From Vreelandella sedimenti (GTDB lineage: Bacteria; Pseudomonadota; Gammaproteobacteria; Pseudomonadales; Halomonadaceae), in NCBI RefSeq assembly GCF_013416325.1, contig NZ_JACCGK010000003.1, positions 219,658 through 283,657 of the forward strand: a stretch of 64,000 nt of DNA, given 5' to 3'. Made by a program: the position numbers and the translations under genes. The notes beneath the pieces were generated by a model. The model saw only the letters and a list, made by a program, of their open reading frames with translations. It was not told where the DNA came from and did not search any database. Of the stretch, positions 29,686 to 33,443 are shown in pieces (position 1 is the stretch's first letter; each line of letters starts with the position of its first letter).

Positions 29686-30147
29686 TTACTTGGCTGGTCG
29701 AGCATGAGATGCAAGCCGTTCCAAGGCACGTTTTAGCGCTGGGTTGGTGGTATCTTCAGCGCACTCGGAAAGGGTTTTGCCCGCGTCGGCCGACAGACTA
29801 CGAGTGTTACGCTTTGGTGCCACAATAGGGCGTACAGGACGTACCTTAAAGGTAAAGCCGCTGACCCCTTCAAAGCCAGGCAGTTGATGGAGCAGTTCCA
29901 ATAAGCGCCGCTGTTCGAAGCGTAGCCACGTCAGCCAGCTCGCCTGACCACTAATCAGGGTTAAACGACCTTCACTAAAGCCACCCACAAAAATATGTTC
30001 GCGCATCTCTTCGGGCAAGTGGGCGCGCAGGTGTCGCTGGGCCTGATCGATGAGACGAGATAGGCGCATTAACTGATTAATATCACCCGACTTGGAGAGC
30101 AGACGGGCGATGGGCTGTGCGCGAGAACGCTTAACCTTTATACTCAT
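29686..30147 (-). CDS. dciA: DciA-family helicase loader (DUF721)
   Basis: DUF721 protein, 153 aa. The family includes DciA, the ancestral loader of the DnaB replicative helicase in bacteria that lack DnaC. The KH-like core runs from about residue 35 to 105 (EEMREHIFVGGFSEGRLTLI, SASWLTWLRFEQRRLLELL-like helix); the tail is Ser/Ala-rich. DUF721 next to lpxC and secA is the arrangement seen in Pseudomonas. Function inferred from family. Confidence 0.85.
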   Translation of the reverse strand: MSIKVKRSRAQPIARLLSKSGDINQLMRLSRLIDQAQRHLRAHLPEEMREHIFVGGFSEGRLTLISGQASWLTWLRFEQRRLLELLHQLPGFEGVSGFTFKVRPVRPIVAPKRNTRSLSADAGKTLSECAEDTTNPALKRALERLASHARPAK

Positions 30148-30258
30148 ACGCTTAATTCCTAGGGTGCTGCTGTATTAGGCACCACTACTAATGACGTCGG
30201 CCACCTTCGCCGATGGCTGATTAGTAAACTCTACCACGCTCAGGAGCCGGTCTACAGC

Positions 30259-30621
30259 ATGTCACCTACGCTTGATGTTCAATCAGCTTTGCCGCGGCGC
30301 CATCGCCGTTACGGTTTAGCGCGTTGGTGGCTGGCCGGTCTGTTGGTGAGCTGCCTTTTACCCGCCAGTTTAGGCCCTGCAGATGCATTCCGCGGCGGTG
30401 AGCGTAGCGTCACGGTCTGTTTCTGGGTGCCTGCGATTTTACGCGCCCAGTCCCACTGGGTAGCCAAGCGTCGGCGCGCGCTGCAACGTTTTGCTCAAAG
30501 CCCCCAGCGCTTTGCGCCTGTTCGGCGTCTATGTCACTGGCTAGCCCCGATGGCTATGCTGGTCGCCGCGCGGGATGTCTTGACCCAGCGCGGCCCGCCT
30601 TCCCGCCAAGTCTGTCGCTAA
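30259..30621 (+). CDS. Candidate SecM-like secretion monitor upstream of secA
   Basis: A 120-aa ORF I cannot assign by similarity. It lies directly upstream of secA, the position of E. coli secM. It has a basic N-terminus (RRHRRYGLAR) and a hydrophobic core (WWLAGLLVSCLLPASLG) ending in ADA at residue 43, a good signal peptide. The mature part is short, basic and Trp/Arg-rich with two hydrophobic stretches. The C-terminus has R111-G112-P113-P114 followed by six residues; E. coli SecM stalls at Arg-Ala-Gly-Pro with four residues after. CAGGAG lies 12 bases before the ATG, a weak spacing. Signal peptide, position and motif are seen; arrest is inference. It could be an unrelated small exported protein. 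Confidence 0.6.
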   Translation: MSPTLDVQSALPRRHRRYGLARWWLAGLLVSCLLPASLGPADAFRGGERSVTVCFWVPAILRAQSHWVAKRRRALQRFAQSPQRFAPVRRLCHWLAPMAMLVAARDVLTQRGPPSRQVCR

Positions 30622-30703
30622 TACATCTACTTTTTGCATGCTCTAGAGATAATCAGCATGCATTGAAAGGGCAACGTCCGCTGGGACGCTCGTGAATACT
30701 TGG
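30606..30703 (+). promoter_or_regulatory. Predicted secA translation-control RNA structure
   Basis: CCAAGT (30606-30611), within codons 116-118 of the upstream ORF, is the exact complement of ACTTGG (30698-30703), the only Shine-Dalgarno-like sequence before secA. Between them are two hairpins: TGCATGCT/AGCATGCA (30635-30642 with 30655-30662) and CGTCC/GGACG (30675-30679 with 30684-30688). A ribosome stalled with P114 in the A site would cover CCAAGT and free the secA ribosome site. This resembles secM-secA logic; pairing is by inspection only. Confidence 0.5.
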
Positions 30704-30710
30704 ATATTTC

Positions 30711-33443
30711 ATGCTTAATAATTTATTACGAAAAGTCGTGGGCTCTAAAAACGACCGCGATGTCAAACGCATGCACAAGAATGTGCCGCAGATTAACGCC
30801 TTAGAAGCAGAGCTTGGGGCGATTAGCGATGCTGAACTGCAAGGTAAAACCGCCGAGCTGCGCCAGCGCTTAGAAGCCGGTGAGCCTCTTGATTCGCTGT
30901 TGGCGCCCGCCTTTGCGATCGTGCGAGAAGCCAGTAAGCGCGTTATGGGCATGCGCCACTTCGATGTGCAGATGGTAGGCGGCATGACCCTGCACCGTGG
31001 CCGCATCGCTGAAATGAAAACTGGTGAAGGTAAAACGCTGGTGGCGACGCTGGCGGTGTACCTGAACGCGTTGCCGGGTAAAGGGGTGCACGTGGTCACG
31101 GTGAACGACTACCTGGCTCGCCGTGATGCTGAGTGGATGCGTCCACTATATGAATTTCTGGGCCTTACCATTGGCGTCATTTTCTCTGGTCAGACGGGCG
31201 AAGAAAAGCGTCATGCGTATCAGTGCGATATTACCTATGGCACCAACAACGAGTTCGGCTTTGATTATCTACGCGATAACATGGCGTTCTCGTTAGAAGA
31301 TAAAGTTCAGCGTGGCCTGCACTATGCGATTGTCGATGAGGTTGACTCGATTCTTATCGATGAAGCCCGTACGCCGCTGATTATTTCCGGCGCGGTCGAT
31401 GAGAATACCGACCTCTATAAAGTCGTCAATCAACTTGCCCAGCAGCTTGAAAAAGGCGAAGAGATTGAAGATGAGGAGGCCACGGTTGTTGGTGACTTCT
31501 TGGTCGATGAGAAGCAGAAGCAGGTAGAGTTAACTGAGCAGGGGCATAATAAAGTTGAAGAGCTGATGCGCGCTGAAGGCTTATTAGGCGATGAAGAGTC
31601 GCTGTATGCCGCGCAAAACCTTAACTTGCTTCAGCATATGCACTCGGCGCTGCGCGCCCGTCATCTCTATAACCGTGATGTCGACTACATCATCTCTGAA
31701 GGTCAGGTGGTGATCGTCGACGAGCACACCGGCCGCTCTATGCCCGGGCGCCGCTGGTCGGAGGGATTGCACCAAGCCGTTGAGGCCAAAGAGGGCGTCA
31801 CGGTGCAGCGCGAAAGCCAAACGCTAGCCTCAACGACGTTCCAGAACTACTTCCGTCTGTATGAAAAACTCGCCGGGATGACCGGTACAGCGGATACTGA
31901 AGCCTTTGAGTTTCGGCAAATTTATGGCCTCGACGTGGTGGTGATTCCCACCAATCGGCCATTGGCCCGTAAAGACCTTAACGATCTGGTTTATTTGAGC
32001 GCTGAAGAGAAGTATGAAGCGATCATCAAAGATGTTAAAACCGAGACCGAAGCTGGGCGTCCAGTACTGGTAGGTACGGCTTCTATTGAGACATCCGAGT
32101 ACCTTGCCAAGCTGATGCGCGAGGCGGGCCTTACGTTCAATGTGCTTAACGCCAAGCAGCACCAGAGTGAAGCGGAGATCATTGCTCAGGCAGGCCGCCC
32201 AGGGGCGATTACGATCGCCACCAACATGGCCGGTCGTGGCACCGATATCGTTCTAGGGGGTAACTGGGAGGCCGAAGTCGCCAAGCTGCAAAACCCTAGC
32301 CAAGAACAGGTTGAAGCGTTAAAAGTCGAGTGGCAAGCGCGCCACGATGGTGTACTCGCCGCTGGCGGCCTGCATGTGGTGGGTTCTGAGCGCCACGAGT
32401 CCCGGCGTATCGACAACCAACTGCGTGGCCGAGCCGGACGCCAGGGTGACCCTGGCTCAACGCGCTTCTTCCTGTCGCTTGAAGATAGCCTGATGCGCCT
32501 GTTCGGTTCTGACCGCGTCAAACGCTTGATGCAGGCATTGGGGCTTGAGCATGGCGAAGCCATTGAGCATAAGATGGTCTCTAACGCCGTTGAGCGTGCC
32601 CAGAAGAAAGTCGAAGGGCGTAACTTCGATATTCGTAAGCAGCTGCTTGAGTACGATGACGTCGCCAACGATCAGCGCCGAGTGATCTACGACCAGCGCA
32701 ATGAGATTCTGGCCGCAGACGATGTGGCTGATGCCGTTATTGGTATCCGCGAAGAGGTGATGGAGACGGCCATCAGCGACTACGTGCCGCCCCAAAGCCT
32801 GCCCGAACAGTGGGATCTGCCCGGTTTGGAAGCCCACCTGAAGACGGAGTTCAACCTTGACGCACCGGTGGTTAAATGGGCCGCCGAGGATGATCGCTTT
32901 AGTGAAGAGCAGCTGCGTGAACGGCTGCAGACAATGCACCGCGAGGCCTATGCAGCCAAAATCGAGGCGGCTGGCGAGAAGCTGATTCGCCGCTTTGAGA
33001 AGCAGGTCATGCTGCAAGTGCTGGACACGCGTTGGAAAGAGCATCTTCAGTCGATGGATCATTTGCGTCGCGGTATCCACCTACGTGGCTATGCTCAGAA
33101 AAACCCCAAGCAAGAGTACAAGCGTGAATCTTTTGAACTCTTCCAGCACCTGCTAGAGCACATTAAAGCTGATGTGACGCGCATTCTGAGCCACGTGCAG
33201 GTTCGTCAGCCCGAGGAAGTGGATGCCCTTGAGCAACAGCGCCGCGAAGCGCTGGCGCGGGAAACCGCCACGGCGGCAAGCCGTCATGACACCCCGGCCC
33301 AGGAGCAGCCCGAAACCGAGCAGGAAGCGCCTGGTGTCGATGGCCGCCCTGTGCGTCGTGAAGGCCCGAAAGTTGGCCGCAACGACCCCTGTTTTTGTGG
33401 CTCGGGTAAAAAGTACAAGCAGTGCTGTGGAAAACTAAGCTAA
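30711..33443 (+). CDS. secA: Preprotein translocase ATPase SecA
   Basis: Motor that drives preproteins through SecYEG. Walker A MKTGEGKT with G106-K-T at 106-109, [15 protein letters not shown], the preprotein cross-linking domain, helicase motifs ([33 protein letters not shown]), and the C-terminal zinc-binding [13 protein letters not shown] (C894, C896, C905, C906) that contacts SecB. 910 aa (E. coli 901). The ATG has only a weak TTGGAT ribosome site eight bases upstream, which may be sequestered (see upstream element). Confidence 0.98.

Follow-up and report, generated by a model that had tools for sequence, protein, structure and literature searches.

A candidate RGPP arrest peptide upstream of secA in Halomonadaceae and a probable SecM-like RNA switch on secA

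In the Halomonadaceae, a short open reading frame (ORF) located directly upstream of secA ends in a conserved RGPP motif, and this candidate arrest peptide probably drives an RNA switch on secA of the SecM kind. The ORF was analyzed in a stretch of 64,000 nucleotides from Vreelandella sedimenti (contig NZ_JACCGK010000003.1, positions 219,658 to 283,657), hereafter the window, and in related genomes. Judged by its sequence, the ORF fits the published arrest-peptide group uA_RQH_Pseudomonadales and would hence be of a known kind (PMC10987492). Masking of the secA initiation region by the RNA of the ORF tail, and its unmasking by a stalled ribosome, are probable in view of the comparative evidence and of the stall published for this group.

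We propose that the ORF encodes an exported peptide whose C-terminal RGPP would stall its own ribosome, P113 occupying the P site and P114 the A site. By analogy with SecM, pulling of the nascent chain by the Sec machinery would prevent or release the stall. As long as no ribosome is stalled, the mRNA immediately following the RGPP codons would pair with the secA initiation region and limit initiation; a stalled ribosome would sit on the 5' arm and free the secA site, and SecA would rise. We further infer that the stall regulates secA, and that the helix of this species consists of CCAAGU/ACUUGG and UCGC/GUGA, alternating with a hairpin that carries the Shine-Dalgarno sequence (SD) in its loop. 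This full account of a secretion monitor, RGPP arrest together with a tail/initiation-region RNA switch on secA and the helix of this species included, is in our judgment fairly likely to be correct.

Results

The upstream ORF and its conserved motif

The coordinates of the features are given in Table 1. The N-terminus of the ORF, RRHRRYGLARWWLAGLLVSCLLPASLGPADA, is basic and then hydrophobic and by eye resembles a signal peptide, with hydrophobic WWLAGLLVSCLLPASLG and ADA following the basic stretch. At the other end, the ORF reads DVLTQR111GPP114-SRQVCR, with P113 about 70 residues beyond the putative signal, and a gap of 89 nt separates it from secA. R111, G112, P113 and P114 are invariant in 16/16 aligned members, in which much of the hydrophobic N-terminal core is invariant as well. 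Pfam searches with the ORF gave nothing over the cut-off (the best was DUF4328, 17.1 bits, cut-off 27.2), and NCBIfam gave no match.

Table 1. Features of the secA upstream region, in coordinates of the window
Feature	Position	Strand	Remarks
Upstream ORF, 120 aa	30259..30621	+	Signal-like N-terminus, spacer, C-terminal DVLTQRGPP, six-residue tail
RGPP arrest motif (candidate), codons R111-G112-P113-P114	30589..30600	+	RGPP (once RAPP) in 147/147 loci
5' arm CCAAGU	30606..30611	+	Downstream edge of stalled-ribosome footprint; in MFE fold
Second 5' arm UCGC	30615..30618	+	Pairs with GUGA 30692-30695; just outside footprint
First intervening hairpin	30630..30669	+	RNAfold; length and sequence of the region vary between relatives
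Proximal hairpin GGGC..GUCC....GGAC GCUC	30669..30691	+	Just upstream of secA ribosome site; alternative to the inner MFE hairpin at 30675-30688
Competing hairpin CGUGAA/UUCAUG	30691..30713	+	SD in loop, AUG in stem; excludes masking helices
3' arm GUGA	30692..30695	+	RNAfold MFE
3' arm ACUUGG	30698..30703	+	Overlaps SD-like GGA 30702-30704; MFE fold
secA	30711..33443	+	NCBIfam PRK12904.1, 1271.3 bits, cut-off 814

The first-pass annotation had suggested that a ribosome stalled on the ORF could control access to the secA ribosome site, and the distribution of the ORF and its motif agrees with an arrest-peptide candidate. The ORF was detected in 59 of 97 genomes searched, every match lying within its own genus, and in 248/266 genomes of the family (20/24 genera). 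Among 147 loci fetched by ORF similarity (L001-L067 and L070-L149; 112 distinct regions), an in-frame D-[VA]-x-x-x-R-[GA]-P-P precedes secA in all, 146 having RGPP and one RAPP. The pattern was also found in 39 of 40 further loci; the other one, L153, has the RGPP bases and another residue replacing V. The tail, the stop codon and the gap to secA vary among loci, and the tail differs in both sequence and length. Without overlap, 39-120 nt separate the ORF from secA in 57/60 loci, the remaining three rows being one split ORF counted twice and one frame that runs into secA. The nearest named loci, among the best 80 of 115 confirmed loci, belong to Halomonas and Vreelandella strains with 95% to 40% ORF identity; genus and family names of relatives follow record titles.

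Some genomes gave no ORF in tblastn searches with this ORF as the query: 7/7 genomes of one genus (g50, G227-G233) and 5/6 of another (g52, G249-G253). It is possible that the monitor was lost in them, or that it has diverged beyond the reach of tblastn. In one genome with a listed completeness of 86% and contamination of 6% (G045), the ORF appears as two separate matches (L024 and L059), possibly because of an assembly error.

Complementary arms and their predicted fold in the window

Several structural points of the first-pass annotation held. CCAAGT near the end of the ORF and ACTTGG before secA are exact complements, the former comprising the last base of codon 116, codon 117 and the first two bases of codon 118. 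As had been noticed, ACTTGG also overlaps the SD-like stretch of secA, GGA at 30702-30704, which ends 6 nt before the secA ATG at 30711. When the RNA was folded, the two arms were paired in the RNAfold MFE structures of both 30590-30740 and 30600-30720. The same MFE includes a UCGC/GUGA helix absent from the original description and, in addition to the first hairpin between the arms, a second one at 30675-30688. Because the arms pair, with UCGC/GUGA added and two hairpins between them, the three-way junction that had been drawn by eye is correct for this predicted fold. The energy of the whole fold is ordinary (z -0.09 and -1.54 for 30590-30740 and 30600-30720, respectively).

Whether the six pairs exceed chance, a doubt raised together with the original observation, received a divided answer. 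The tail/SD duplex, at -11.5 kcal/mol, is better than that of shuffled tails (p=0.018), and the SD was masked equally well in only 0.015 of 200 shuffles of the 21-nt tail. When the duplex target is widened to 35 nt, the locus no longer belongs to those having z below -1.2, and its p value is 0.74 if all of the downstream stretch may serve as the target. Overall, the pairing is modestly above chance, and this result depends on the target chosen. Searches of 30100-30900 against Rfam, up to E 1, gave no match, and none was given by sigma-70 promoter and terminator scans of 30100-30760; a check of the anti-SD by 16S 3'-end pattern found no match in the assembly.

The stalled ribosome and access to the secA SD

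By the toeprint convention, the ribosome edge lies about 15-16 nt beyond the first P-site base. The first base of P113 is at 30595, so that a ribosome stalled there would reach approximately 30610-30611, and the CCAAGU arm, 11 to 16 nt after this base, is at the very edge of the footprint. The proposal that a stalled ribosome would cover 30606-30611 is thus only just satisfied for CCAAGU and does not extend to UCGC. The secM-like geometry on which it was based did assume the stall site correctly for this class, as stalling in RQH members occurs when the third residue of the motif occupies the P site (PMC10987492).

In predictions for the window sequence, the SD is unpaired with a probability of 0.30-0.44 in free RNA vs 0.76-0.86 with a stalled ribosome placed on P113, and its opening cost falls from 1.4-2.5 kcal/mol to 0.3-0.5 kcal/mol. 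A mask of 1.4-2.5 kcal/mol would, in this model, be cheap to open, which counts against the proposal. For a 23-nt landing zone around the start codon, the stall brings no predicted gain (0.47 to 0.46 unpaired) because a local hairpin forms. The competing hairpin, in which 30691-30696 pair with 30708-30713 and the SD is in an 11-nt loop, is the MFE structure once the tail is removed. The secA AUG lies inside this conserved stem, which is odd for an "open" state.

Conservation of the pairs in the clade of the window

The six pairs were followed in an alignment of 24 distinct clade sequences, window included. Together with UCGC/GUGA, whose pairs are standard in 88.5% of cells, they make ten pairs that are standard in 89.2% of 240 cells, compared to 21-45% after one strand is shifted against the other by 1-3 columns. 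The complete set of six pairs is present in 13/24 sequences and at least five of the six in 22/24; the commonest differences are those that a G-U pair absorbs, and the breaks include A-G or G-A in four sequences, C-A in four, A-C in two and single others. The ten pairs show one-sided changes only, and shuffled partners score equally (89.4%).

The first-pass annotation had looked to compensatory changes in the six pairs, and to the absence of a better competing fold, as marks of a genuine helix. No compensatory changes occur among the 24 clade sequences, and the RNAalifold consensus of these sequences is the SD-loop hairpin together with the proximal hairpin. By that standard, with no covariation and a competing consensus fold, the window-specific helix is unproven, and we regard CCAAGU/ACUUGG in this species as plausible. 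The competing hairpin itself shows no double changes. The outer stem of the proximal hairpin (GGGCG/CGCUC in relatives) is kept in the Vreelandella group, with 92.4% of cells paired over 29 distinct sequences (33 of 54 candidate loci were aligned), and two of its pairs have a double change, e.g., GGGUG/CACUC in L025.

Clade-level tests of the pairing were negative. The fold test gave 3.43 tail/initiation-region pairs vs 3.43 with shuffled tails, and 0/24 sequences at p<=0.05; in a tail-swap test of 22 nearly identical clade loci, 3,881 of 5,000 permutations were at or below the observed mean. Codon 117, which lies inside the 5' arm, is CGA in 12/12 cases of Arg and CAA in 9/9 cases of Gln among the 24 sequences; in five window genes, CGA accounts for 6.4% of Arg codons and CAA for 29.6% of Gln codons. 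This bias, in sequences that are related, points to a constraint at the base level. In L002 (1837-1860), a near relative, an in-frame stop is present in place of codon 117, the third codon after RGPP, and the tail bases are otherwise kept, and in L010 the same tail bases as in relatives are read in another frame.

A different register of the tail, CGAG/CUCG, was considered and rejected as the better one: its most variable pair forms in 13/24 sequences and meets A-C in 11/24, the other three pairs forming in 22-23/24.

Complementarity between tail and secA initiation region across the family

Elsewhere in the family, the tail offers arms of unrelated sequence. In L108, L111, L112 and L121, UGCGUGGGCA right after RGPP pairs with UGCCACACGCA upstream of the SD, and L136 has one base changed. 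Further arms are UGCGUAUCGC/GCGACACGCA in L119, L124 and L131 (one mismatch), GCGUGUGGC/GCCACACGC in L147, GCGGGUGCUU/GAGCACCCGC in L168 and GUGCCUG/CAGGCAC in L122. A distant lineage within the genus of the window contributes UCCAAUCGACGU/ACGUCAAUUGGA (L055, one mismatch).

This complementarity was scored by duplex tests, which ignore competing folds. With a target of -20..-1, 5 of 60 loci (one genome occurring twice) had p<=0.05 and the mean z was -0.13, a result that looks negative except for the window and L053-L056. The target was widened to -35..-1 after inspection of Halomonas sequences, and the p values of the first set are therefore post hoc: 24/112 distinct loci had p<=0.05 and 12/112 had p<=0.01, 88/112 failing the former threshold. 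The positive control, E. coli secM-secA, gave z -2.8 and p 0.007. Because the widened target was post hoc, held-out loci were fetched afterwards; 15 of 40 were dropped before counting (one missed by the motif pattern and 14 that duplicated known regions or one another), and the 25 others, which share genera with the first set and are not fully independent of it, had 6 at p<=0.05, 4 at p<=0.01 and 19 failing p<=0.05. Testing the tail against the whole downstream stretch was weaker than the -35..-1 target (15/112 at p<=0.05). In the 25 rows with p<=0.05, E. coli included, the 5' arm starts at a median of 4 nt after the first P-site base, and 284/386 paired arm bases are inside the footprint. In many of these helices, the 3' arm does not cover the SD but lies immediately upstream of it.

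Full folds of 41 loci from other genera contained 8.57 tail/initiation pairs vs 3.75 with shuffled tails, 18/41 loci having p<=0.05; a gain in openness of the landing zone was significant in only 8/41. Opening costs are near or below 1 kcal/mol in many relatives. Free-energy accessibility was dropped as the main family test as it fails to detect E. coli secM, for which accessibility tests disagree in sign and a clear drop in opening cost is obtained only with 60 nt of upstream context. Since the fold tests are mixed or negative on E. coli secM too, their negative results are weak.

In a sub-lineage composed of L040, L043-L047, L049 and L101, the apparent partner of the tail (around CCCCGUUUU) is not the SD but AACGGGG, some 50 nt ahead of secA, a segment that could alternatively fold into a GGGG/CCCC hairpin. 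A p value of <=0.05 was reached by L101 only (p=0.043, whole-stretch test), the others being judged by eye. These loci are possibly a three-state version of the switch.

Co-variation of tail and initiation region

Cognate tails pair with their initiation regions better than swapped tails do (0 of 5,000 permutations, all loci, at every redundancy cut; shared ancestry is handled in these permutations by the redundancy cuts only). After scaling by shuffled tails, which controls for composition, the counts were 0 of 10,000 for 41 non-redundant loci and 5 of 10,000 for 29 loci. With the hold-out added, the count was 0 of 10,000, and the hold-out alone gave 30 and 336 of 10,000 at two redundancy cuts. 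For Vreelandella-type loci alone, the test was not significant at cuts of 0.95 and 0.8 (389 and 325 of 5,000) or with the composition control (1,163 of 10,000); at cuts of 0.7 and 0.6, the counts were 3 and 50 of 5,000, but the strong L054-L056 lineage may be part of the sets obtained at these cuts.

An alignment of 18 sequences, hand-picked for one helix type, had 80.3% of cells paired compared to 76.7% in shuffled alignments (0 of 500 as high) and a covariation score of 0.159 compared to 0.116 (1 of 500). One pair was changed on both sides, below the shuffled mean of 1.8, and the consensus that RNAalifold itself derived from the alignment had no pair changed on both sides. The idea that the secA site is hidden in a SecM-like manner holds better at the level of the family, where complementarity and co-variation exceed chance, than for the six pairs of this species, for which the clade shows no covariation. 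A masking helix is well supported in sister genera and weakly supported for this species.

Discussion

The main alternative concerns the identity of the switch. The RGPP peptide may control secA through a structure other than CCAAGU/ACUUGG, either another register of the tail or the proximal and SD-loop hairpins, the six pairs being a coincidence at the species level. The consensus fold of the 24 clade sequences, which consists of just these two hairpins, speaks for it, as do the two double-change pairs of the proximal stem over 29 distinct sequences of the wider group and the lack of excess pairing in the clade fold tests. The CGAG/CUCG register lends it the 13/24 sequences that pair at the most variable position and the 22-23/24 at three others, but also meets A-C in 11/24. 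Against the coincidence stand the conservation of at least five of the six pairs in 22/24 sequences and the fact that the masked fold is the MFE structure for the window itself. On balance, we consider this alternative rather unlikely.

Other explanations would dispense with the RNA mask. The arrest might act mainly by translational coupling or by protection of mRNA by the stalled ribosome, leaving the complementarity without a regulatory role; the low opening costs in many relatives (near or below 1 kcal/mol) speak for it. Yet the family-wide co-variation of tail and initiation region persists when composition is controlled and when held-out loci are added, codon 117 is constrained at the base level, and the ORF and secA do not overlap, with 39-120 nt between them in 57/60 loci, which makes this explanation very unlikely. 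It is hardly credible that the six pairs are due to chance and that the ORF plays no part in regulation: a match of six pairs is common by itself, and p=0.74 is obtained when the whole downstream stretch is allowed, but the ORF, its signal-like segment and RGPP are conserved throughout the family.

Within the preferred reading, an RGPP arrest peptide acting on secA through tail pairing, a broader idea may be put forward tentatively, its chances being in our view somewhat short of even. The post-arrest codons of Halomonadaceae would be selected as a movable arm of an RNA switch, not for the protein they encode, and would be rebuilt with unrelated sequences in each lineage, the arrest motif and the target remaining fixed. 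In the group of the window, the switch would be bistable, with CCAAGU/ACUUGG and UCGC/GUGA hiding the SD or the CGUGAA/UUCAUG loop showing it.

The RNA helix of this Halomonadaceae lineage is described here; the arrest peptide itself is already of a known kind (PMC10987492). By comparison of genomes, the data provide evidence for control of secA via an RNA mask by an arrest-peptide group known from the literature, and they suggest how such a mask can remain functional as its sequence is replaced. Among the members of the family are many named Halomonas and Vreelandella strains, which represent natural variants with strong and weak helices and could be used to gauge how much masking a secretion monitor needs. 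Among open-licence full texts, we found no report on Halomonas that deals with secM and an arrest peptide, and, among the papers listed, none whose title or opening abstract lines point to an RNA mask in Halomonadaceae.

We take the Halomonadaceae to be placed in the GTDB order Pseudomonadales, the order of the uA_RQH_Pseudomonadales group. In Fujiwara et al. 2024, this group comprises RGPP arrest peptides upstream of secA, and a member with R109GPP arrests both E. coli and B. subtilis ribosomes with fAP >0.9 (PMC10987492). The window ORF is similar in its position directly before secA, its putative N-terminal export signal (here by eye), its C-terminal RGPP and its spacer of about 70 residues (the family requires over 30), and it appears to match the search criteria for monitoring substrates given there (PMC10987492). 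RQH members are described there as sharing no overall sequence similarity beyond the motif (PMC10987492). The motif is R111GPP in the window vs R109GPP in the tested member; three named loci allow an ATG giving position 109, which proves nothing.

E. coli SecM-secA is similar in that an ORF with an export signal (putative here) precedes secA and that its arrest site (a candidate here) is closely followed by a 5' arm complementary to the ribosome site of secA, the pairing being a prediction in the window. It differs in motif (FxxxxWIxxxxGIRAGP vs DVxxxRGPP here) and in the start of the arm, which is 4 nt after the first P-site base in E. coli SecM and 11 nt here; the spacing of about 70 residues compares with a median of 71 in short SecM variants (PMC10987492). 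Membership in the SecM family (Pfam PF06558) was rejected, the ORF having no match to the model and the SecM arrest motif being absent. In the genome of the window, the best hit of the model was 13.7 bits on another contig (cut-off 25); in a control with 14 genomes, the model matched in E. coli. BLASTP of the ORF against E. coli SecM gave E 7e-4 as a single comparison, with the arrest motifs not aligned. When 274 genomes of the class were searched with E. coli SecM, none matched (0/274), a result that carries no information, since no genome known to match is present in this sample.

The closest precedent for the mask is uDF_RQH_Enterobacterales-secDF2 of Alteromonas naphthalenivorans, in which an RGPP stall opens an SD-masking stem, as demonstrated by stem mutants; it acts on secDF2 and not on secA, and in the portions of the report used here it is the only case for which downstream regulation and an RNA mask are shown (PMC10987492). 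ApdA/ApdP (RAPP) and VemP/MifM have other targets and are other peptides. Like the candidate described here, they are arrest peptides encoded before a gene for protein localization, and stalling of VemP or MifM induces the gene that follows.
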